From Fomitopsis serialis (Eukaryota > Basidiomycota > Agaricomycetes > Polyporales > Fomitopsidaceae), in NCBI RefSeq assembly GCF_022376445.1, contig NW_025955013.1, positions 124,001-188,000 of the forward strand: 64,000 nt of DNA, given 5' to 3'. The notes under the pieces were generated by a model. The model was not told the DNA's origin. It saw nothing but the letters and a program-made list of their open reading frames with translations, and searched no databases. This document shows positions 5,109 to 24,600 of this stretch, piece after piece. Positions within the stretch are counted from its first letter, which is position 1, and every line of letters starts with the position of its first letter. Both the position numbers and the translations under genes were made by a program.

Positions 5109-8100
5109 TTACCATTGACGATACGGATCATCATTCGGTGGGTATCCTCTCCTAGCCTCTGGGAAACCAGGCGCTCCTCCAGGCTGCGGGAAGCCCGCAG
5201 GGCCCTCAGGCGCAGGGTATCCGCCACCCGAATGGTGCCCATGATGTCCATGGTGGCCTCCATGATGCGGCTGGGCACTCGGGAACCCAGGAGCAGACTC
5301 GCCGTACCCTCCGCCTCCGTATCCTCCGGGGCCACCGCCACCAATGTAGGACGGCGCATACCCGCTCGGCTCGGCACCCGGGAAGGCAGGCGGCGGACCC
5401 GAGGGCGGGGCGTAGCTCGACTCGTAGCTCGTGCGTATCTCTTCGCCGGGCATGCGCACCGTCTGGCTTTCCCCGTAGTACGTCTGTGCGTGGCCGCCGC
5501 TGTGATGTCCGTGGCCACCATGATGCTCACGATGATGTGCGGGCACCGTTTCCTGTACCACAGTTGTTTGGACTGCTGGCACACCGCCCCCTGAGCTCAA
5601 GTAACCGCTCTGCACGCTCCGCGCAGCACCGGCACCATACGGGGCGCCATCCCGCAGACCAAAAGCGCCAAGAATGTCGCTTTGCGCTTGCATCCCCGCC
5701 TGTTGCGCCGTTCCGAAGCCGTGTGATTGACCGCCCTGGCCCTCATGACCGATGCGCACGTTCATGTGGTTCCGCACACTCTGCTTGGTGAGTCTCCGGA
5801 GAACCTCGTTACGGTCAGAGCCGAGCTCGTCTACCCATCTCTTCATGAAATCGAGCATTTGGCGCTGAATCTCAGAGCCGCGGACGTGGAAGTCGGGGTG
5901 GAACCTATTTCGAGCATTGACTCATCAGACGTCCCAGGCGGTAGGAATGCGGATGAGTAGCCTACAAGCTGTGGAGAACATCTTCTGTCACGTCGTGTGG
6001 GTTGATCCCGACATCGTCCCAGGCCTTGACGACACGCGTTACGGTGTATTGCTACTCAAGATGTTACGGGACGGCCTTGAATGATAGCAGTCGCACAGCA
6101 CAAGACATACCAGGATGATCTTGCCCAATTGTCCAGCGGGCTCGTTCAGAATCAGGTTCTACACACGCACACGTCAGTCATATAAAGAGTTTAAAACATC
6201 ACAGTCACACTCACAAAGTGATCTTTACTCATGAACGAGTGCGTGGGGTCAGACTGAGATTTTGTCAGTACCCTGGGGTGAGCATACGCTCGTCCGACTC
6301 ACCGCGTTGGGGTTATCGAAGACCTAAGGGCATAGTCATTAGGCAGCCGACTCGTCGCGCGACGTGCATGCGTACCTCGTACTGGTCCTGCTTATCGATG
6401 ACTTCGCCGGACGCTGCGGAGAGACCAGTCGTCGCCTGCTTCATGATCGGCTTCAAGAAAGGCTATGTACCATAATCAGTCAGAGACTCAGTGCATGGCT
6501 CCAAGGCCAACGAACCTCAAGTGTGGTAAACACGAAGACTGTATCGAGTATCAGCTCACACCCCGAGGAGAACTGTTCATGTGCATACCAGAGACGGAGT
6601 CCGTGATCTTGTCGAGCAACGAGCTCAAGCCAGGTATCTTGGCTACACGCCTGCTCAGCAAAGCCCACTGCTCGCCAGACTGACCACTCACTGATGATGA
6701 CGGAGACCTTCTTCATCACTGCGCAAGCACGGGTCAACACCGCCCGTACCCAACGTCCCTACTCTCAGCACTCACCCGAGTCCCTGAAACTCAGCACCTG
6801 CCACAACACCGCATGCAACTCCTGGGGGCTCATCTGCTCCGGGGCCTTCATATCGGCTCCTTGTCCGCCATACCCACCGCCGCCACCGCCATATCCACCG
6901 CTGCCCCCGTACCCACCGCCACCGCCGCCGCCATACGCTGCCCGCTCGCCATACCCACCACCGCCCCCGCCACTGCCCATGTCCCGACTCCGCTGGCCCG
7001 CCGCGCGAATTCGCTCGACGCCGGCCATCTCGCGTGTGAGCTCACCGCCGCTCCCGTCGGGCAGGCTCGTGAGGAGCTCGCGGAGGTTATTCGCGGACGA
7101 CGTGTTCGAGGACGCGCGCGCCTTCTCGAGCTGCGCGTTGAGGTCGACGACGGAGGCTTGGCTCTGCGGGAGGGCGGTCAGTGGAGGTTCGCAGAGATGT
7201 GGGTAAGACCTACGATGTGGTCGCTGGCCTCTGGACCGGTGTTAATTCACAAGCACGTCTAGAACAAGTGTGTGACTTACCGCCTAGCAGACTGTGGATA
7301 AAGTCACTCGAGCCAAAGGTGCCTGCAAGCGATGTTCCATACCAAGGAAGGTCACTTAAATGTACTGTACGCACCAGTTACCAGAGGGGCGACGTGCTTG
7401 CCGTCGGGAGCCTGAATACGGACGCGATCGCCGACATGTACGAACACGTCGGTGTGGCCCATAGCCACGAGCGAAAGCTCGCAGAAGTTCGAATGTGCCG
7501 CAAAGTCTTCCATAGTGTGCAGCTGTTCGTGATCGCACGCCTCAGCAAGACGGCATACTAGGCGATGTGGGGTGCTACGCACCGCCTGGCCCAGCAGCCT
7601 GTACGCCTCATACAAGTCATCCTTCTGGTTGGTTTGGCGGTACCGTCTACCGATATCAATGCACTGGTGCAGCACGCGCCTCACGAGCGCCTTCGACGTA
7701 TCCCATCCGCCGTGCTCGTTCGCGATGTAGTTCTTCATGCCTGTCTTGCGGTCAATTTCGAGCTCCTGGGGGTTGACGGGCCCGCGGAGACGCGAGTCGA
7801 AGCTGCGCGCGTTGTCGGGATAGCCCTTGGGGTTGTCGATGTGCTCGGTGGGGAGGTAGACACCGAGCCGTTCGATGGTCACTTCGAACTCGCCGGTGGC
7901 GTAGCCGTGCGCGAGGAAGCCGAGGACCATGCACAGGTTGACGATCGTCTGCAGTTGAAGCTTTGACAAACCGGCAGTATCGACAGCCTGTAGAGCATCA
8001 ATCATCTGGGCAACGCAGGCAGTCGATCGTCAGGGCACGCACCTGACTATAGTCCCTCAACCAGTTGCCAAAGTACACCCGCTTCACGTCCAACGCCTTG

Positions 8101-11413: not shown

Positions 11414-11816
11414 TTGAACAAGCCACATTCCATATCGGGCGGACAATGGCTGCGGCGCTGATGGGGCGGTGAGACAAACATCCACATATGGCAGGTCAAT
11501 CGAACACGTGCATGGCGCGTTGGTGGCGAAGTTGGGCGCTCCCTGTGACCCTGTCCTCCCTCATCGTCCTCGACGCGTCAGACCGCTACCGCCCTCCGTG
11601 TAATCCTCGCTGGTCGCGCGTAAATTGAACCCTAGCACTGCCATTGTCGCAGAGTGAAATAATTGCACCGTGTCAGTGCGGAAGGTAAGTCATATCGCAG
11701 CTACTCAGGTGCGGCGAGAACGCGTCGCTGAGTCACAAGTTGAAGCCACACAGTTATCCGTGGCCCATCAGCCAATACGTCCATTTTTGGCGAAGTGCTT
11801 GTGCCCCAAAATCGAT
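11414..11816 (+). repeat. Upstream block shared by the FunK1 kinase copies (copy 1)
   Basis: Starts with TTGAACAAGCCACATTCCAT, continues through the 'cgggcggacaatggctgcgg' segment, and ends at the kinase ATG. The same block precedes kinase copies 2 and 3 in direct orientation and copies 4 and 5 in inverted orientation. It includes a probable 5'-UTR intron with donor GTAAGTCATATC after 'gtgcggaag'. Because it is duplicated with each gene it should contain the promoter; no classical TATA box is evident. Confidence 0.75.
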
Positions 11817-12954
11817 ATGCCTCGCCGCTCAAAAGCTTCGGCAGTGCGGGTTCCTCCCCCGCATTTCCCCCCTTCTGACTACGACAGTACTCGAACCGCC
11901 TGCTGCACCGCTGAGGACGTCGAGATGGCCGACAAGGTTACACCTCATAAAGGTCCTCCGCAAGGTGAGGCGACAGACGGTGCGAGCAAACGGCAGAACA
12001 GCGAGAGAAACGCAAAACGTTGGAAAGCCGAGATCTTCGGGCGGATCGTTGAGCCCACGCCGGAAATCGAGACTTTCTTGGAAGAGTTCGTCCCGTCGGA
12101 TGACAGCCACCTCGATTGTCTCGATACCGAATTCATGGCAGAGGTTCCCGCTGTTGAAGGGAAGGAGCTGACGATGTATGGGCCACTAGTAAGCATCACT
12201 CAGGCTCGTGCAGATATCCTGTGCATATATCCTCTCTCGATCCTGACGACGAGTCGCAGGTGGAAGGCCTCACAAGCCTAGTCCGCAACTTTCCAGAAGA
12301 AAAACGACCCGTGTTCAGCAACCATGCCCACAAGACGATGCGCTTCCCGTTCGCAATGTGCGACGACGAAGAGCATTCCACGATGCCGGATGTCACTGCT
12401 ACCATCCCCGGGCTTCCGTGCATCCCGCCTGTTGATCGTTGGCGGAACGTCGTCCTTGTCTTCGAAGCCAAAGCCACTGCTACACAAGACCCCATGGTAC
12501 GATATACGGAGCATCACGAGAAGACGCTCGTCCAGCTTGCGATGAGTGCGCGTAACATCATGCTCGCTCAGGGGAGGTTGTTTGCGTTCGTCGTCGGAAT
12601 CTACGGACACGAGGCACGCATCTTCCGGTTCGATCGAGCAGGAGCTATATCTTCTCCGCTGTTCAACTACGTAACGGAACCCCAACACCTGCATAACTTC
12701 TTGTGGCGGTTTCTCAACCCTGTGGAGGAGGATTGTTTGGTGGTCGGTGACGATCCGACGTCCACTCTCGGCACCCACGAGGACCGTCAGCTGGTGCAGG
12801 ATCTGACAGCTGCCCACGACCCTGAGTACGAATATACGCAGGAAAACAGGAAGGCGGTTCGTCGATTCGTGGTGCATCACGGCGAGAACGACAAGACGGA
12901 GTATCTGGCATACAAGCTGATATCCGTTAACCCGCGGCTCTTCTCGCGCGCGAC
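11817..12954 (+). pseudogene. FunK1 fungal protein kinase copy 1, 5' half (split by transposon)
   Basis: The ATG at 11817 begins MPRRSKASAVRVPPP. Exon 1 is 11817-12188 and exon 2 runs from 12260 to 12954, where the transposon starts inside the codon after LFSRA. This half carries the N-terminal part of the Pkinase_fungal (FunK1) domain, with VEGLTSLVRNF, DRWRNVVLVFEAKA, AQGRLFAFVVGIYGHEARIF and RKAVRRFVV, but lacks the catalytic residues. Reading continues 34 codons into the transposon and ends at a stop near 13058, so a truncated fusion of about 390 residues could be made. The rest of the gene resumes at 18519 in the exact phase. Without the insert the gene would be a normal array member, so this is a recent disruption rather than long decay. 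Confidence 0.9.
12947..12954. repeat. Target-site duplication, left copy (CGCGCGAC)
   Basis: The eight bases CGCGCGAC directly left of the transposon recur directly right of it at 18511-18518. The four other kinase copies have the site only once, in the coding stretch for LFSRATTIWEAF (copy 4 with a single base change). Confidence 0.93.
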
Positions 12955-12992
12955 CAAGGGGCAATCTATCGGAGAATTTTGGACCGCAGGTC
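12955..12992 (+). repeat. Left terminal inverted repeat of the transposon
   Basis: Positions 1-8 (CAAGGGGC) and 26-38 (TGGACCGCAGGTC) match the reverse complement of the right end exactly. The 17 bases between are diverged. The inner 13-mer is the likely transposase-binding site. Confidence 0.88.
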
Positions 12993-13091
12993 TCAAAAGC
13001 TTAGCGCCGTCCCCCGAACACCAAACCGACCACCACCACTCTGATAAGATGGTAGATTAGATGAAAATAAGCAATCCGCGCGATCGTACAG

Positions 13092-16000
13092 CTAACGGCG
13101 TCGAGTCGACTTCGTTCCTCGCTCAACTACAACATTCGACTGAGATCTCATACGCTTTTTCCCCTTCTTGTCCTGGCTGCCCTCGATTTCCTTGCTGTAT
13201 TGTTCTATATCATCGCTCCCAGGTATCTCGTGTTTGATGCGCCAACCTTCAGTAACATCGCGGTCGACTTTCATCAAGGTCTCCTCCTCCAAAGAGATGT
13301 GCATATCGACCGCGAGCTGCAACGGGATGGGCGGCATACGTTCTCCGTCGACATCCATGTGCTCCTTTGCTAGGTGGAACAGTACATTGTACTTCCAGAT
13401 GGTGCGTGGTTGACCGGTCCGTCCTGTCGGGCAGAGTGGACAGTGGATCGGAACATTCGTACACGGTGTTGCCTTGCTGACGGATTTGGCCGAATTGTAG
13501 CTCATCGAGGTGTAATGATATGGGCAGCTGCTTGTGATCGAAGCGGAGTTATTCTTCTTGGTGAGTTGCACGACACATCCGTCTCTTCCACAGAATCCAC
13601 ACGGCTCGATGCCGAGCTAGTATGCGCAGCGGCGAACATCAGTTACGACTCGGAAGACCGTTTGGTGAGTATGATAGCTCACATTGTCTATATTGCATGC
13701 ATCCTCATCAATGCCTCGCATTGCGTAGAGTATATGGTGCCCGACGTGATTGCGCATGTTCTTAACGAGGTGGCGAATACCGCAGATGAAGCAGGCAACC
13801 GAAGCTGTACCAGCTTGTTTTTCGACTGTTAGCCATGTCGGGACATCGAGCACGGCGAGTACTTCATTTCCTGATTGATTGTGAGCCACTGTAAACGGTT
13901 ACACTGAAAGGCCGCGACCTTACCTAGCTTGTCCTTGTAAGGCAATTTCGCTGCGGTGAGTGGCGGGACTTGTTCGAGATTGCTAATGATGTCCTCTGTA
14001 TCAGGCGATAGTGATTCCCAAGCGAACGTCAGGATGGTATCAAGCTGGGAGTGCGTGAGTGACCATGTCTTCGCGATTTGTGAGCTTTCCATGGCGCAGT
14101 GCCGAGCGATGTCGGACTGATCAATGTCTGTCACAGGTTGTCGTGCAAGTGCGACGACAGATGGACCGAGGGGATGAATGAGCTTCCCCGGAATTTCAAG
14201 ACTGTGCTGGCGCTGTGTCATGCGCTCTCCGCTAGCTTGTACATCGAAGCGAATGTACGAATGTGTTCACTGCCATGTGCGCTTGTCGGTGGGTACGGCA
14301 GCGGATTCCGGCGTGAACATATCCAACACTTGGGTGGACACGGTATGTGAATCAGTGTCGTCTTCCAAATCTTCTACATTGACACTTGAGATCCAGGTTG
14401 TGTCATCGCCTTTCCCCCTCCGGAAACCAATGATCTCAACAACCGCGAGGCACACGGTAGACCGCACACGGAGCAGTGATGCGGCGAGATCTCCCATCTT
14501 CACTATGTCGCCATCAAGCAAGTCAGTCGAGTTCAGGTTGCCCTTCGCGCCGCGATCTAGGTCTTCAAACGTCACTCCACGATTGCGCAATGTCCGCAGT
14601 GGGACCTTCCGTGCGCGGCTTGTTGTGAGCAGTGCCGTGACCACAGATGATTTGAAGAACTTCTTGTTATCAACAAGCAGGAAATGATCTTCGGGCGATG
14701 ATGCCAAGGTCACGTCATTCTCGAGGTCGTCCGTAGTTTCTGGCAAGAAGTCCTCGATGTCAAGGCCTATCGGTACGTCGTCATATTCATCTTCATCAGG
14801 TACTGGTGATTCAGTGTTGTTATTGTCGCTGCTAGGGACTGCGCTTTCGTCGGCGTCGGTACGATCGTCGTCCGGATCGTACTTGACTCCAACATAGGTA
14901 CCTCCCGGTCGGAGTAAGTCGCAGTCTGTCTGCGTGTACATGGTATTGAAGCTCTCAGCAGCATCAATTCCAAGGTACTGCGTGATGAGCTTTTGGGCAT
15001 TCACCCGACCCCTGGCCCATTCCGATGCAACATCAACTTGGCCCACTCGAACATCGCCGACCCATGAGCGTGGATTGACGCGATCAACACCCTTCGCGTC
15101 TTTAAGATCAAGCCGTCTGTGTCCACGATCGAGGTCAGGATTACGTTCGAAGATCAGACTGATCTCCGCAGCGATACTGAGCTTCTGACATAGCTGCAGA
15201 ATATCGAAATTCCGGCTGTGATCCTGTGTGCGACAATCACCGAAGAGGGTTTCAAGTCGATCTGTGCCCTCAAGGATGATGTAGAATGGTATGTCATCGT
15301 CTAGAAGCTGGAGTCGCAGGGTAGTGATGATGATATTCTTTACAATTGCTTGTGAGTCGGCGTAGAGAGCTCCGGTCATGAAGGCAGTCCCGTGCCGCAG
15401 CCACATTGCTGCGAGCAAGTGGGAGTATGTCGCGAGGGAGCATACTTGTGTAGATAGTGACATGCTGACTGTTATGAATGGTTGCACAAAGTAGCCAAGG
15501 ACCTCGGCGAAGAACGACAACAAGTGATGGCGATGAGCCCTGGCTGGCAATAGCTCAGCTGTGGGCAGCTCTTTGACATTGAGCAACTCCTGCACCAAAC
15601 GGACTGCTTTTGGTACGTTTTGCTTGTCTGCGGGATCGAGAAGCCTTCTGGCATCCTCTGATGACATGTTCGGCAGATCGAGGAGATGCGCCAGGAAGTC
15701 AGACCGTTGAAAAAGTGTGTCGTTAACCATGATACCACGAGGATTGCGTATCAGTGTTGCAAATCCTAATGAAAATGTAAGTCTTGGTTGAGGTGTCTGA
15801 CGACTGAGACCTACGCTTGATGACGTGCTTTGGATCACAGGTGGCAACAATACCACTTGAACTTGTTGCTAGATTCATACCTCGGAGCTGACGTAGCTGG
15901 CGGCCAAGGGAAGTTGCTTCGGGTACAGTATGTGTGAAGCAGAAAATATACTTCGCGAGCCGAAATGCTGCGTCACCATCGCTCCCTAGTGCCCATATTG

Positions 16001-18069
16001 GCCCTTGTGCTGTTTCGCCATTCGGATCACTTTGCCAGGCATCACAGTAGGTCTGGAGCCACTGTGCAAGCTCACGACCTGTCTCGCTTTTGTTTGTTGG
16101 CGAGGCAATAAGGGGCAGGGCACTGGGGTGATCGGTACGTGCATACGGTGCCATTGCTACGACAGTCGCTTCTTGCCCACAAGAGATCTTGCCGTCACGA
16201 AGAGAAGCCGCAACTTCTTGCAATGCCTCGTATGTCGTAACCTGAACTGACACTTTATGGGCATCTTCTCGGCTCAGGCCGACTATTGCATTACTGGATG
16301 GAAGGTAACGGCACCGCTCTTCGAGACTGACACCGTCAATCATCACGATAAGACCTGCAAAGTCGTTCGACGCGCCATATCGGGGCGGTGGAGGTTTTCG
16401 CGAGGGATTGCAGAATGATGTGTAATTCGTCTTCGCATCCTGACGCGAAGGAATAGAAATAGATGGTAAGAGCTCAGGGATCTTCTGCTTGCGATTCGTG
16501 GTGGATACTGATGCAAGTCCGTGGGATTTGGATAGGGCATACAATAGACGTGGGCCACCGAGTGCTTTCACGAGGAATGCGATATCGATATCGCGTTCCT
16601 CAAAGTGTGCACGATCACTGTACAGCCCTGTGATAGCGCGTTCAATCTGCGCAATCAATGCTTTGGGACTCGCCCCCTTGCGCAGTGCAACAGAGAGTAA
16701 GTGGTGGAGCCGCTTGACATCATGATTTGCGAGCAGTGTAACGAGACGCTGGTGGTCGTTGATCTTGCCACGAAGTCGAGACAGATTACGATCTGCATTG
16801 CGACTCTGCCGATGATGGTGAGTCACAATGTTCATACAGAACACAAATGTTCAGTGCTTACCTTGAGCCGCAGGAGTCGGTTCTCGCTGACGATCTTCTT
16901 ACAGAGTGCAACAATTTGACGGTAATTGAGGTACTCCCATGGCGTGTAGTCACTCGCAGATATGGCCCTATCCAAGAACTTGCGATATCGTTCGGACGCG
17001 GGGATCATTTGACAGGCTGTGCAGCATCCGTCTTTGCTGATTGTTGATCGGGCGCAATCCTTTGCACGAAGGCGGAACCATTCACCATTCTCGATGCTGA
17101 CAGGCTCCCATGGGTACTCGCGAAGCGCATGCTGGTGGTACGGGTACGTGTCCCACACAGAACCTGCTTTCCACTGAATGAGCACGCCTTTGCAGGCGAA
17201 CCCGTTCTCCGTGGATCGGGATTGACGCGATGTCCCGGCGTCTTTAGCAGCAGCAGGAGGTGGTCGCATACCCGTAGGCAGCGGCGGCATACTCGTAGGC
17301 AACGGCGGCATACCCATGGGCAGCAGCGGCACATCCGTGAGCAGCGGTGGCATACCCATAGGCAGCGGCGGCATATCCGCAAGTGGCGATGGCATACTCG
17401 TGGGCGGCGGCTGTCCTCGGCCAAGGTCATGGTCCATCCCCGAAGGAACTTCTGGCGCAGGCGATGAAGCATGTAAGTCCCCAAATGCGAATGTAAGCTC
17501 ATCCGGCTGATCATCGCCAGACAGTCGGCGAGTCGATTCAGATGGTTCGTCGACTAGCGAGGTTGTCGCAGTAGGAAAATGCGACTCGGGCATAGGCTGA
17601 AAATGTGGCGTGGCAGGAACACTAGCATTTAGAGGCTGGTAATTCTGAGCTGCACTAGATGACTCGCAGGGCCCGGGATCTGGTGCAGCTCGCAATTGAG
17701 CCTGTGTTGTCCCTACTAGTGGAGATGATCATAAGGTGCTTTCTGTTGACGTGAAAATTCACCGCGCTTACCTCCAGGCCTTTGCTCAATATTCTCAGGC
17801 TGGAAAAGTGCTCTGCGCGCCGCGGATGCAGCTTCGCGCTCGCGCCGATGCTGAGCTTTCCGCTGCGACTGAGTACAACTATCAGACCCGCGGTGTTCAT
17901 TCAAGAATGCGTGCGCGTGGCCGTGTTTCGTCAGGGTAACTTGCTTGCCGCAGAGGTCACAGTGTACTACGTGTCGTCTCTTGTCTGCGTCCCATTGCGT
18001 CCAAAGGACCTGTCCATCGGAAGTGCGTATCTCGATGCTAGCCTGAGCAGGCGGAGTCGGAGTAGCCAT
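13092..18069 (-). CDS. Putative transposase with DDE-like core and four zinc-finger-like modules
   Basis: Encodes roughly 1,550 residues in six or more exons; start MATPTPPAQASIEI at 18069, stop at 13092. In order: an N-terminal Cys/His module (HCDLCGKQVTLTKHGHAHAF); a 7-residue repeat rich in MPPLP; CKGVLIQWKAGSVWDTYPYH with a CARS..CTAC cysteine set; a helical region (LRLKVS to LLYALSKSHG); then a core with MIDGVSLEERCRYLP, ALGSDGDAAFRLAKYIFCF, ATCDPKHVIKRFATLIRNPR and EGTDRLETLFGDC. The spacing of Asp-Gly, SDGD, DPKH and the late Glu resembles the RNase-H-like fold of P-element/THAP9 transposases; that assignment is inference. An acidic linker and three C-terminal Cys/His modules (CFICG, CGFCG, CPLCP..H) follow. 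A TGA at 14267-14269 interrupts the frame between KRTWQ and THSYIRFD, unless a 39-nt intron removes it. The family recurs as uncharacterised proteins in Agaricomycetes. Confidence 0.75.
17277..17408 (-). repeat. 21-bp coding minisatellite in the transposase gene
   Basis: About six tandem 21-bp units of the type ggcagcggcggcatactcgta, imperfect, all in the minus-strand reading frame, encode heptads such as MPPLPMG, MPPLLTD and MPPLPTS. The length is a multiple of three throughout, so this is a protein repeat and not a non-coding satellite. Confidence 0.85.
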
Positions 18070-18472
18070 GTTCGAGTGTATGAAGGGCAGTGGTAGGGCG
18101 CAATGCTGTTGATACTGCAATAGATACTATTGCCATGTGTACTACGTGACTTATACATGCTGTCTACATGTGCATGCCGTGCGGAGACCATGCCTTGGAC
18201 TTCGATCCTGCGGTGGCTGCAGGAATCTTACTCGTCCATAACGGGAATCCCGGCGCTTCAGCTCAGTACGACTGATATTCAACGTTCGCGCCCCGTACTC
18301 ATTATACTGCCATGGGAACTACACGGGCGTGTTTCTGCATACATATACTTCATATAATATGAAACCCGTGTATGTATCTTGCCTCCGTGTCAAGTAAAAC
18401 GAAGTTTCGCCGATAATGGTCGAGAAAGTGAGGTCGAGGACCCCGTACACCGATTTGGGAGGACCACCAGTG

Positions 18473-18510
18473 GACCTGCGGTCCACTTTCCGGCGCGTGC
18501 GCGCCCCTTG
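18473..18510 (-). repeat. Right terminal inverted repeat of the transposon
   Basis: The reverse complement starts CAAGGGGC and has TGGACCGCAGGTC at positions 26-38, matching the left end. Here the inner site extends to a 19-bp interrupted palindrome, AGTGGACCTGCGGTCCACT, so it could bind a dimer. Confidence 0.88.
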
Positions 18511-18518
18511 CGCGCGAC
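18511..18518. repeat. Target-site duplication, right copy (CGCGCGAC)
   Basis: Identical to the eight bases at 12947-12954. Kinase coding sequence continues immediately after it with GACGATCTGG. Confidence 0.93.
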
Positions 18519-20705
18519 GACGATCTGGGAAGCATTCGAGCTTGACAAAAAGCGCATAGCGACGGGCAAGCGTGTGGTCATCAAGGAGGCCTGGCGGCAA
18601 TTTGTGCGGCCATCGGAGATAGACTTCTATCTGACAGTTCAGGAGGCTATAGAGGAGGTGGAGGAAGGTGTGGTATTATCGCAATGCGGGATTGCCGACC
18701 TCGAGTACGGTGATGATCTGGGCTTGCGCGAGGCGAAGGACCTCGATAAAGACGCCATTACGCCATCCGAAGACGACGAGTATACTGGTGACTTCCCGAG
18801 GCTGAAGGTGCCTTGCTCGTGGGTGCTCGGACACCGGACTATCAGTGCCGGTCGTCGGGCCAAAGGCATCGAAACGGACGAGCGAGCTCAGATGCGGCTG
18901 GTTTTCAATACCGTCGGAAGGCAAATTACTGATTTCGACTCGACGTACGAGGTGGTTAGTGCTCTGCGTGACGCAATTGAAGGTGTGTTTAGTCTCCACC
19001 ATCTGTTCGCCGCGACGTTAACAAGGTCTGCTGCGATAGGGCATCGGCGAGCGTACGAGGCTGGAGTCCTTCACCGGGATGTCAGTCGTGGCAACATCAT
19101 GATGGGCAGGAGACCCGATGGAACCTCCTTTGGCTTTCTTCATGACTTCGACTACGCATCCAACTGGAAGGTGTTCTTGGCGAGCAAGAACATCCTGGCC
19201 GGTTTGGTACAGTGGGAACAGTACGCTCGGAAGGAATATGGACTCGACTGGCGGGAGCGGGTGAAAGGGTGGTCCGACAATGATGATGGACCCGGCGACG
19301 AGCTACTAACGGCCTTGGATCACTCGGACTTTGAGGATAGTCAACCCTCGTCCAGCGATTCAAGTGACGACCCAGTTCAAAGCACACCGAACAACTCGAC
19401 CGGCCAACGCGAGCAACCCAACACTAAGCAGTCGAAGTTTGATCATAAGCAACGCACGGTGAGCCCGTTGTCCTGTGCGTGTGCCCGACGGTTGCTAACC
19501 GCTGACAGGGAACGTTATATTTCATGGCCGTTGAGGTACTCGATGAGAACTTCAGCGTCACGCATGAAGCTCGGCACGACCTTGAATCCTTCTACTGGCT
19601 GTTGGTGTGGATAGTCCTCCGTCATACAGCATACCATCACATTAACGGTGACCGTGCGTGGCACGCACTCTTTGATGCGCCGACAATCGAAATCTGCCGG
19701 GGGCTCAAGATACAGTGGCTGGTCAATCCATCGCGGCCTCTCGAGTTTAAGAAAAATCCGAATCTCACGTGGCTATTGGAGCAGTTCCGAAACCGCTGCC
19801 AGACGAACTATGATAATGTTAACCTGGAAAACACCTGCATGACGCATAAACAGGTTCTCGATCTCTTCGATCGCGCATTGAAGAATCGGCGTGCTTGGCC
19901 GAAGAACGACCGCGCAAAAGCATGGACCCCGCCCAAAGGCAGAGCGGACGAACCAGACGCTATGAGGAAGCGGTCAGGGCAGCTTCGCACGAAGGGAACC
20001 CTCACCTATACGTCTCAGGGCGCGGGGCGCAGCGCATCCGAGCGTGCTGCACAGCGTCGAGCAGAGAAGCGCCCAGCGGCCCCTTCCCCTACTCCTTCCG
20101 ACTCGGACGCCCAATCTGACGGACAGGCGGGCGGCATTTCCTTGCCTGATGCCAACGTGCCGAACGTAGGTGCTTCCAAACGTGGAGCGGCATCAGGTGC
20201 AGTTCGAGGCAAGCGACGGCCTGCTGCTCTACATACCTTGACTACGTCGCCCCATACATCAGGAGGCCACGAAGTCCCGCCTTCGACCAACAGCAACTTG
20301 GTGCAGAAGCATCCGCGCTATAATCTGCGCTCGGCGAAGACGAAGGTAGACGAGGATCAGCAATCAGCGAGGAGCACGTCTCGCGAGATGGGACCTCCGC
20401 CCGCCCCAAGGACACGTTCTGGCCGCTCGCAGACCCAGTCTTCAAGCCGTCCTGCTACCGAGCAAGATGTGAGGCCGAAGAGGGGAGTAGCGCAACGAAG
20501 CGGACGCGTGCGCGCGGAGGCGATAACGAGATTGAGGAAGACACTGATGTATCGCATTCCTCGAAACGTCAGAGGACGCGCAGCCAGCCTCGGGCGGACC
20601 AAAGCTCACGCAGGTCCCAGGTTAGGCGGTGATAGCATTGTTGTGGTGCAGTGTTCGTTGGTTAGACGGGCTGTTGTTGATATTGAGTTTCATTCTGGGC
20701 CATGA
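18519..20705 (+). pseudogene. FunK1 fungal protein kinase copy 1, 3' half (split by transposon)
   Basis: Resumes at TTIWEAFELDKKRIATGKRV in the phase left by the 5' half. Segments: rest of exon 2 (18519-18982), exon 3 (19040-19458), exon 4 from 19509. It holds the putative ATP-binding lysine (RVVIKEAWRQF), the catalytic loop HRDVSRGNIMM, HDFDYA in place of DFG, and GTLYFMAVEVL followed by HEARHDLESFYWLLVWIVLR. A basic Ser/Pro/Arg tail follows. Compared with copy 2, the G run at 20482-20485 has four bases instead of five. This shifts the frame and extends the tail to a stop at 20705; with one more G it would end RSQVRR at 20632. With the transposon excised and that base added, exon lengths are all consistent. 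It lacks its own promoter and start. Confidence 0.88.
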
Positions 20706-21300: not shown

Positions 21301-21695
21301 TTGAACAAGCCACATTCCATATCGGGCGGACAATGGCTGCGGCGCTGATGGGGCGGTGAGACAAACATCCACATATGGCAGCTCGATCAAACACGTGCAC
21401 GGCGCGTTGGTGGCGAAGTTGGGCGCTCCCTGTCCTCCCTCATCGTCCTCGACGCGCCAGACCGCCCCCGCCCTCCGTGTAATCCTCGTAGGTCGCGCGC
21501 AAATTGAATCTTAGCACTGCCATTGTCGCAGAGTGAAATAATTGCACCGTGTCAGTGCGGAAGGTAAGTCATATCGCAGCTACTCAGGTGTGGCGAGAAC
21601 GCGTCGCTGAGTCACAAGTTGAAGCCACACAGTTATCCGTGGCCCATCAGCCAATACGTCCATTTTTGGCGAAGTGCTTGTGCCCCAAAATTGAT
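21301..21695 (+). repeat. Upstream block shared by the FunK1 kinase copies (copy 2)
   Basis: Near-identical to 11414-11816 up to the kinase ATG, with a few small gaps. It begins TTGAACAAGCCACATTCCAT. It is the candidate promoter of the best-preserved kinase copy. Confidence 0.75.
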
Positions 21696-24600
21696 ATGCC
21701 TCGCCGCTCAAAAGCTTCGGCAGTGCGGGTTCCTCCCCCGCATTTCCCCCCTTCTGACTACGACAGTACTCGAACCGCCTGCTGCACCGCTGAGGACGTC
21801 GAGATGGCCGACAAGGTTACACCTCATAAAGGTCCTCCGCAAGGTGAGGCGACAGACGGTGCGAGCAAACGGCAGAACAGCGAGAGAAACGCAAAACGTT
21901 GGAAAGCCGAGATCTTCGAGCGGATCATTGAGCCCACGTCCAAAATCAAGACCTTCTTGCAAGAGTTCGTCCCGTCGAAACAGAAGACCTTCAACTGTCC
22001 CGATACACAATTCATGGCGGAAGTTCCGACTGACAAAGGAAAGGAGTTGAAGATGTATAGGCCGCTAGTAAGCATCACTTGTGCAGACATCCTGGCCGCT
22101 ACTGAAAGCACCTCGCAGGTGGAAGGCCTCACAAGCCTGGTCCGCAACATTCCCGACGACAGGCGGCCTACGTTTAACAACCATGCCCATCAAACCATGC
22201 GATTCCCGTTCGCGATGTGCGACTACGCAGAGCACTCCACGATGCCAGATGTTATAGCGACAATACCGGGGCTTCCATACATCCCGCCTGCTGATCGCTG
22301 GAGGAATGTCGCGCTTGTATTCGAAGCCAAAGCTACTGCCGAGCAAGACCCGATGGTGCGGCATGCGGCTGAGCATGAGGAGACGCTCATCCAGCTGGCG
22401 AAGAGTGCGCGTAACATCATGTTCGCGCAGGGACGATTGTTCGCGTTCGTGGTTGGGATCTATGGACACCAGGCACGCATCTTCCGATTCGATCGAGCAG
22501 GGGCTGTATGTTCTCCGTCGTTCAACTACGCAGAGAATCCCAAGCTCCTGCACGAGTTCTTATGCCGCTTCCTCAACCCTACGCTCAAAGCTTGCGTGGT
22601 AGTCGGCGGCGATCCCACGTCCAATCTTGGCACCCACGAGGAGCGTACGAAGGCGCAGGAGCTGGCGGCCGAACACGACCCCTCATACAAGTATACGCAG
22701 GAAAGCAGGAAGGCGGTTCGTAAATTCGTGGTGACGGAGGGCAAAGTCGAGAAGACGTATCTAGCCTACAAGCTGATATCCGTCAATCCACGGCTCTTCT
22801 CGCGCGCGACGACGATCTGGGAGGCGTTCGAACTCGACGAGGCGGGCGAGGCGACGGGCAGGCGCGTCATCATCAAAGAGGCATGGCGGCAGTTTGTACG
22901 GCCATCGGAGATAGACTTTTATCTCATGGTGCAAGAGACTATGGAGGAGGCGGAGGAAGGTGCAACATTAGCGGAATACGGGGTTGCCAAGCTCGTGTGC
23001 AGCGATGATCTAGGCTTGCGCGAGGCCAAGGCCCTCAATATGAAGGCCAAACCGAGGGCCAAGGAAACGGAGTATGTTGGCGATTTCCCGAGGCTGAAGG
23101 TGCCTTGCGCGCGTGTACTGGGTCACCGGACTGTCTCTGCCGGGCGTTATAAGAAGGGACTTGAACATGTCGAACGAGCCCAGATGCGGCTCGTTTTCGA
23201 GACCATTGGAAAGCCAATTATCGATTTCGACTCGACGTACGAGTTGGTTAGTGCTCTCCGTGACGCAATTGAAGGTGCGTCGTGGCTCTACCTTTTGTTA
23301 TGATGACGTTGACGAGGTGTGCTGCGATAGGGCATCGACGAGCGTACGAGGCTGGAGTCATTCACCGTGACGTCAGTCGTGGCAACGTCATGATAGGCAG
23401 GAGAGCGGACGGAACCTCCTTTGGCTTCATTCATGACTTCGACTATGCGTCCAACTGGAGGGCGTTCTTGGCGAAGGTGGAGACGCTGGCCGATTTGAAG
23501 AGCTGGGAAGAACACGCCCGGAAGGAATATGGACGCGACTGGCAGAAACGGTGGGGCAACAGCGATGCCAATTCTGGTGACGAGTTACCAACGGTGGTGC
23601 GGCATTCCGATCGCAATCGCAAGCAACATACGTCCCGTGATCTGAACAACGAGCGAGCCCACCGCACATCGCGCAACTCGCGTGCTCACCAACCACCAAG
23701 CGGTTCCAAGAAGGACGAACACGGACAAGCAGCTACGGCAGATCCGAACCTCGATCATAAGCAACGCACAGTGAGTCCGTCCCCTCCGTGTTCCTATCAG
23801 CGACTGACTACTGGCAGGGGACTCTGCATTTCATGGCTGTCGAGGTACTTGATCCGGGATTTAACGTTACGCACGAAGCTCGACACGACCTTGAATCCTT
23901 CTTCTGGCTGCTGGTATGGATAATCCTCCGTCACACAGCATACGATAAGCCCAACAGTGACCAAGCATGGCACGCGCTTTTCGATGGGACGACCATAGAC
24001 AGCTGCCAGTCGCTCAAGATGAAGTGGCTGATTGGCCCACCGTACCCTATCGAGATAGAGGACAATCCGATGCTTGCCTGGCTTTTGGAGCGTTTTCGGA
24101 AACTCTGCCAGAAAAACTTCAACAGCCCTGATCTGGCGAAGCAGTGCATGACGCACAAGGATGTTCTTGATCTGTTCAATCTTGCTCTGCAGGATCGCGA
24201 TGCATGGCCTGAGAATGACCGCGCGAAACCATGGACTCCGCCTAAACGCGATGCGCATGAAACTGCTGCTATGGCGAAGCGGTCAGGGCAACTCCGCACG
24301 AAGGGGACCCTCACCTATACCTCTCAGGGCGCGGGGCGCAGCGCATCTCAGCGCGATACACGTCGTCGAGCAGAGAAGCGCCCCGCAGCTCCGAGCCCTA
24401 CCTCCGACTCGGACGCCCAGTCTGACGATGGACAGGCGGGTGCAAACGTGCCGGATGTAGGTACTTCCAAGCGTGGAGCGACATCAGGTGCAGGTCGAGG
24501 CAAGCGACAGCCTGCTGGTCTGCATGCCTTGACTGTATCGCCCTATACATCAGGAGGCCACGAAGTCCCGCCTTCGACCAACAGCGACTCGGCGGGGAGG

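Follow-up and report, generated by a model that had tools for sequence, protein, structure and literature searches.

A 5,556-bp insert that cuts the reading frame of a kinase gene in the wood-decayer Fomitopsis serialis is probably one member of a P-element-like family of cut-and-paste DNA transposons found in mushroom-forming fungi. The insert occupies positions 12955-18510 of the 64,000-nucleotide stretch of DNA that was analyzed (contig C479:124001-188000 of a 66.2-Mb assembly in 806 contigs), hereafter referred to as the window, whose numbering is used throughout. Membership of this family in the P superfamily itself is likely and rests mainly on a predicted fold. The window copy led us to a family that is broad, divergent, and apparently P-like, with bipartite ends.

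An insert with exact borders interrupts one of five kinase genes

The initial annotation of this stretch described a DNA transposon with borders fixed to the base, lying between identical 8-bp repeats in a kinase gene that resumes in phase and is uninterrupted in its copies 2-5, and each of these points stands. The insert is flanked on each side by one copy of CGCGCGAC, and when 500 x 600 border pairs near the noted ends were scanned, 12955/18510 was the sole pair combining an exact 8-bp repeat with at least 6 of 14 terminal matches. Since the terminal match of the window copy is 9 of 14 bases, a level exceeded by chance (at least 11) in 27 other pairs across a wider region, the terminal repeat alone would not pick these borders, which are defined by the duplication, the shared outer sequence CAAGGGGC, and the uninterrupted paralogues. 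The kinase frame halts at the left border and restarts past the right repeat, and the frames abutting both borders are still open. Joining the 120-bp flanks with one copy of the repeat gave no gap at the joint in alignments with four other kinase genes of the window (near 22.8, 26.9, 38.8, and 43.7 kb, the latter two on the opposite strand), each alignment showing a 3-bp gap about 50-80 bases upstream. The exact 8-mer CGCGCGAC is found in three of these four uninterrupted paralogues, the copy near 38.77 kb being one base different, and one uninterrupted paralogous frame (21537-23303) matches the Pfam family Pkinase_fungal with an E value of 3.1e-29. Together with seven bordered relatives elsewhere in the genome (see below), the duplication and the paralogues support the identification of the insert as a DNA transposon inside one of five kinase genes, the reading frame of which it cuts.

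That this insertion is recent, as also proposed initially, is only partly supported. A perfect 8-bp repeat is a weak clock for insertion age. The open kinase frames at both borders favor a young insertion, but a broken transposase gene and the lack of a near-identical second copy make this less certain.

The family is found on several contigs and moved recently

Other copies of the element, with different 8-bp flanks, had been envisaged in the initial annotation, for which a sequence occurring once only would have argued for an assembly join; half of this applies, as the sequence is single in DNA but not in protein searches. At the DNA level, a search of the genome that skips very common words returned one full-length copy only, the next best match being 72% over 415 bp on contig C379. 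Protein searches, however, revealed nine further transposase loci (on C379, C364, C124, C168, C130, C485, and C112, and two on C590), with a short C-terminal match additionally on C614. Borders were established in 8 of the 10 copies, that is, in seven of the nine relatives and in the window copy, and their 8-bp duplications are all different. While the first border scan demanded an exact 8-bp repeat, a control scan ranked pairs by terminal match alone. The same pair came first in all seven relatives, with 13 or 14 of 14 bases matching and flanks that repeat exactly over 8 bp and no further, and the next three pairs were flanked by repeats of 0 to 3 bp. Neither scan found a border pair for the two copies on C590 (L032 and L033). 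These two copies have in common a perfect 4.6-kb inverted repeat, and only the AT-rich 3' family end is visible in them.

Two pairs of copies are near-identical, those on C124 and C168 (99.77% identity over 6,396 bp) and those on C130 and C485 (99.57% over 6,304 bp). The alignments end at most 1 base from the borders, and the duplications differ. Such near-identical pairs at different sites are direct evidence that the family moved recently, although not for the window copy itself. In addition, two aligned parts of the F. serialis protein P0227 are 95.7% and 98.5% identical to the C112 element.

The ends are bipartite inverted repeats

While the initial annotation described the inverted ends as asymmetric, and their spacers indeed differ in guanine-plus-cytosine (GC) content, they are more than simply asymmetric, being inverted repeats of bipartite structure. 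The outer inverted repeats are identical over 8-14 bp in all eight bordered copies. Positions 15-26 of the ends show 2 to 6 of 12 matches, and an inner 12-bp stretch starting at position 25-30 shows 10 to 12 of 12 matches in seven of the eight copies, a level reached by 0 to 16 of 20,000 random pairs. Both ends of the window copy carry the inner repeat GGACCGCAGGTC with a 12/12 match, which none of 20,000 random pairs reaches. In 8/8 copies, or in 6/6 families with near-identical pairs counted once, the spacer (positions 14-26) at the transposase 5' end exceeds its 3' counterpart in GC content, the difference being small in L026 (0.62 to 0.46) and L031 (0.46 to 0.31). The asymmetry is part of a bipartite design common to most of the family.

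The transposase is predicted to adopt a P-like fold

As initially proposed, a single large gene accounts for the insert (18069-13092, minus strand), but it is split into six exons, totaling 1,565 codons when spliced, and contains an in-frame TGA. The five introns are short (49-66 bp each) and of the GT-AG type. Homologues read on across the joints of introns 3, 4, and 5, while only splice signals and frame support introns 1 and 2. In exon 2, a 21-bp unit repeated seven times in tandem (17266-17411) encodes a proline-rich, MPPLP-type linker. The segment past the premature TGA would carry Cys-rich C-terminal modules, and because of this stop, the window copy probably no longer produces a full-length transposase.

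Protein database searches returned 173, 267, and 62 relatives in overlapping sets, the best 120 of 173 and the best 120 of 267 being listed. The named relatives among the matches listed are fungi that we take to be mushroom-forming. Their database labels are hypothetical, uncharacterized, or unnamed, apart from a few UniRef names mentioning a zinc-finger domain, and they include one transcript (P0287). The alignments were A1 (94 of 226 proteins plus two window exons), A2 (30 proteins plus two window exons, 32 members), A3 (35 of 287 proteins plus two loci and two window exons), and A4 (37 of 287 plus one window stretch). No Pfam transposase family was found in exon searches or in scans of the 32 A2 members, 11 of which match PF18574 (zf_C2HC_14; best E 0.00076). 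The initial statement that the element fits no named fungal family holds for Pfam, but the predicted fold groups the family with the P element.

A structural model of one relative, P0078 (predicted local distance difference test [pLDDT] 82.2; predicted template modeling score [pTM] 0.84), displays a predicted RNase H fold with D, D, and E residues, in which an insertion made up of helices only separates strand 5 from the E helix. D130 is on strand 1, D248 just past strand 4, and E474 in a late helix, while D296-x-x-H299 begins the helical insertion. In A1, these residues are conserved in 86 (D130), 88 (D248), 92 (D296), and 95 (E474) of the 96 sequences, with gaps making up nearly all the remainder; the window residues matching the predicted D, D, and E are given in Table 1. 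Against solved structures, two P element transposase entries came first, followed by Transib, ISCth4, RAG1, and Hermes, a ranking that does not exclude superfamilies absent from the structure list. The insertion domain of the P element is at the same place as in the P0078 model. Two further traits of the P superfamily are present, the 8-bp target site duplication in 8/8 bordered copies and terminal plus inner inverted repeats (outer in 8/8, inner clear in 7/8).

Alternative identities

Several observations weigh against a P-like identity. Over the fold match, identity to the P element is only 14-16%, and the model is that of P0078, a relative whose identity to the window exons is about 35-40%, not of the window protein. 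No Pfam P-element model rose above cut-off in any scanned member, nor did one appear in the 32 A2 members even at an E value of 1. PF21787 was seen below cut-off in 3 of 15 distant relatives, all at the first-D motif, which is near noise; unrelated models score alike in the same or similar scans (BUD22 0.00057, TSCPD 0.0035, SpoIIE 0.02). The P element was not matched in PDB sequence searches, for which one exon, two profiles, and one protein served as queries, and THAP is absent from the 18 families listed for the 32 A2 members, several of which have complete N-termini, window exon 1 being outside that scan. The inner repeat of L025 is not clear (7/12 matches, a level reached by 3,142 of 20,000 random pairs). 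Finally, we know of no solved structure for a Kyakuja-Dileera-Zisupton (KDZ) element, so the fold match alone cannot separate P from KDZ. Genome searches with P profiles yielded two sub-threshold matches outside family loci or nothing, the controls giving no signal either. The failure of every Pfam P model and the low identity would also suit a separate superfamily, sister of P, Transib, and RAG1 but outside P, as would bipartite ends with spacers of about 13-18 bp and zinc-finger-like regions instead of a recognized THAP domain. We consider such a placement possible but rather unlikely. More tentative still is the reading that the family forms a superfamily of its own, placed between P and Transib/RAG1, widespread in mushroom-forming fungi and recently mobile. 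Its transposase would recognize a signal resembling a recombination signal sequence (RSS), in which a spacer of about 13 bp separates the outer repeat from the 12-bp inner one, and spacer base composition would distinguish the two ends. If true, this would offer a fungal view on how the asymmetric pairing of ends known from V(D)J recombination originated.

It is improbable that the insert is a KDZ or hAT element of unusual sequence, even though both have 7- or 8-bp duplications in fungi and the genome contains many KDZ matches (108, including two below cut-off). Zisupton and Dileera duplications are 8 bp long and Kyakuja ends are of the CA..TG type (PMC12730594). However, none of the 108 matches is at a family locus, the KDZ domain PF18758 is found in 0/32 A2 members at E<=1, and hhalign comparison with a profile of eight of the 108 KDZ matches (alignment A5) gave probabilities of 0.2% and 0.1%, that is, no similarity. 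As for hAT, its C-terminal dimerization domain is not among the 18 families listed for the A2 members. Both identities are thus unsupported by domain scans, and KDZ by locus overlap and profile comparison as well. A CACTA/Plavaka/Transib identity does not fit the length of the duplications, which are 2-5 bp in that clade (PMC12730594) and 8 bp in 8/8 copies here. The single full-length copy at the DNA level would fit a mere assembly join with no insertion, but the exact 8-bp repeat at the borders, the outer terminal repeat common to seven other loci, and the in-phase resumption relative to four paralogues make this very improbable; seven relatives that have matching CA..TG ends, and in which the 8-bp duplications are exact and differ from site to site, argue strongly against it. 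As a separate observation, several of the many KDZ transposase matches in the genome have identical scores on different contigs.

Features of the insert and its surroundings

Table 1. Coordinates of the transposon, its transposase gene, and the interrupted kinase gene in the window
Feature	Position	Strand	Description
P-like DNA transposon, 5,556 bp	12955..18510	-	transposase encoded on minus strand
Left 8-bp target site duplication CGCGCGAC	12947..12954		single copy at matching site of four uninterrupted kinase paralogues, one with 1 base changed
Right 8-bp target site duplication CGCGCGAC	18511..18518		
3' end (relative to transposase)	12955..12992	+	CAAGGGGC (outer 8 bp), AT-rich spacer, GGACCGCAGGTC (inner 12 bp, positions 27-38 counted from end)
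5' end	18473..18510	-	CAAGGGGC (outer 8 bp), GC-rich spacer, GGACCGCAGGTC (inner 12 bp, positions 27-38 counted from end)
Exon 1	17772..18069	-	start codon; C-x2-C...H...C zinc-finger-like motif, read from translation, similar in homologues
Exon 2	16862..17715	-	21-bp tandem repeat 17266-17411; conserved C..W..GSVW.TYPY..H...C..C domain
Exon 3	15815..16805	-	RNase H-like domain; predicted catalytic first D 16335-16337, second D 15978-15980
DPKH motif in exon 3	its D at 15834-15836	-	
Exon 4	13924..15765	-	helical insertion; predicted catalytic E 15251-15253; holds premature stop
Premature TGA	14267..14269	-	codon 1214 of 1565; aligned homologues mostly Trp there
Exon 5	13683..13870	-	C-x2-C...H-x3-H motif, read from translation
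Exon 6	13092..13616	-	Cys-rich C-terminal module (PCGFCG...WKYN...H), stop codon; homologues found
Kinase copy 1, segment ahead of insert	11658..12954	+	outer limit approximate
Kinase copy 1, segment beyond insert	18519..20705	+	outer limit approximate

Between 11500 and 45131, the window contains five fungal kinase genes that are related to each other, some in direct and some in inverted orientation, and that we presume to be FunK1-like. Copies 2-5 show 74-84% identity to copy 1 across about 1.45 kb. A second version of part of this kinase array is found on contig C498, which was considered as an empty allele and rejected, the 901 bases read at its joint corresponding to kinase copy 2 (98.9% identity) instead of copy 1. 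C498 appears to be a haplotype or a paralogous array, apparently without the interrupted copy, and not a clean empty allele. Regarding a preference for insertion into kinase genes, 10 of 28 stop-to-stop frames, taken from the flanks of six other copies (L025, L026, L028, L029, L030, and L031; L027 left out), were without a Pfam match at E 0.001, which gives such a preference no support. Elsewhere in the window, a short tandem repeat with a period of 42 bp occupies 6865-6972.

Discussion

For a P-like transposase of this kind, we infer the biochemistry, the end pairing, and the use of guanosine triphosphate (GTP). The protein may bind the inner repeats via its N-terminal zinc-finger-like region or a helical region ahead of the catalytic domain, and would pair one GC-spacer end with one AT-spacer end. 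The outer CA(A/G)G(G/A)GG repeats would be the sites of cleavage, and the element would be joined to target DNA with an 8-bp stagger, repair of which would leave the 8-bp duplication. The same process inside one of the five kinase genes would have cut its reading frame.

The classic transposon tool in fly genetics is the P element, and the strand transfer complex of the P transposase has been solved. If mushrooms harbor a P-like lineage that is divergent, contains introns, and moved recently, this enzyme class would be broader than known so far, the generality of GTP use and asymmetric ends could be tested, and mushroom genome projects would gain a transposon family that Pfam models miss. In one survey, the P element is among the superfamilies present in all groups surveyed, fungi included (PMC4438587). 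We found no description of the present family in the literature searched, in which subscription papers are thinly covered, and this does not imply its absence from print.

The fungal family resembles the Drosophila P element and THAP9 in its 8-bp duplications, in its terminal and inner inverted repeats, in having ends that differ from each other, and in its predicted RNase H fold, interrupted ahead of the catalytic E by a large helical insertion. In contrast to these systems, and at 14-16% identity to the P element, it has no recognized THAP domain, its outer repeat is 8-14 bp long (31 bp in the P element), and its gene has about 1,565 codons, with Cys-rich C-terminal modules, in elements of 5.6-6.4 kb. 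The two P element ends also differ in the spacing between terminal repeat and binding site (9 and 21 bp) and have been likened to V(D)J signals (PMC7776569).

With KDZ elements, which are likewise basidiomycete DNA transposons, the family shares 7- or 8-bp duplications and, in the case of Kyakuja, CA..TG ends, but it has no detected KDZ domain or profile similarity. The first two Kyakuja families described had 7-bp duplications and no terminal inverted repeats (PMC12730594). As for Transib and RAG1, the fold match is much weaker than to P. Transib duplications are 5 bp in length. The ends of hAT elements such as Hermes and Ac are of the CA..TG type, like those of the fungal family. Finally, hAT elements as a rule generate 8-bp duplications (PMC12730594), the same length as in the fungal family.
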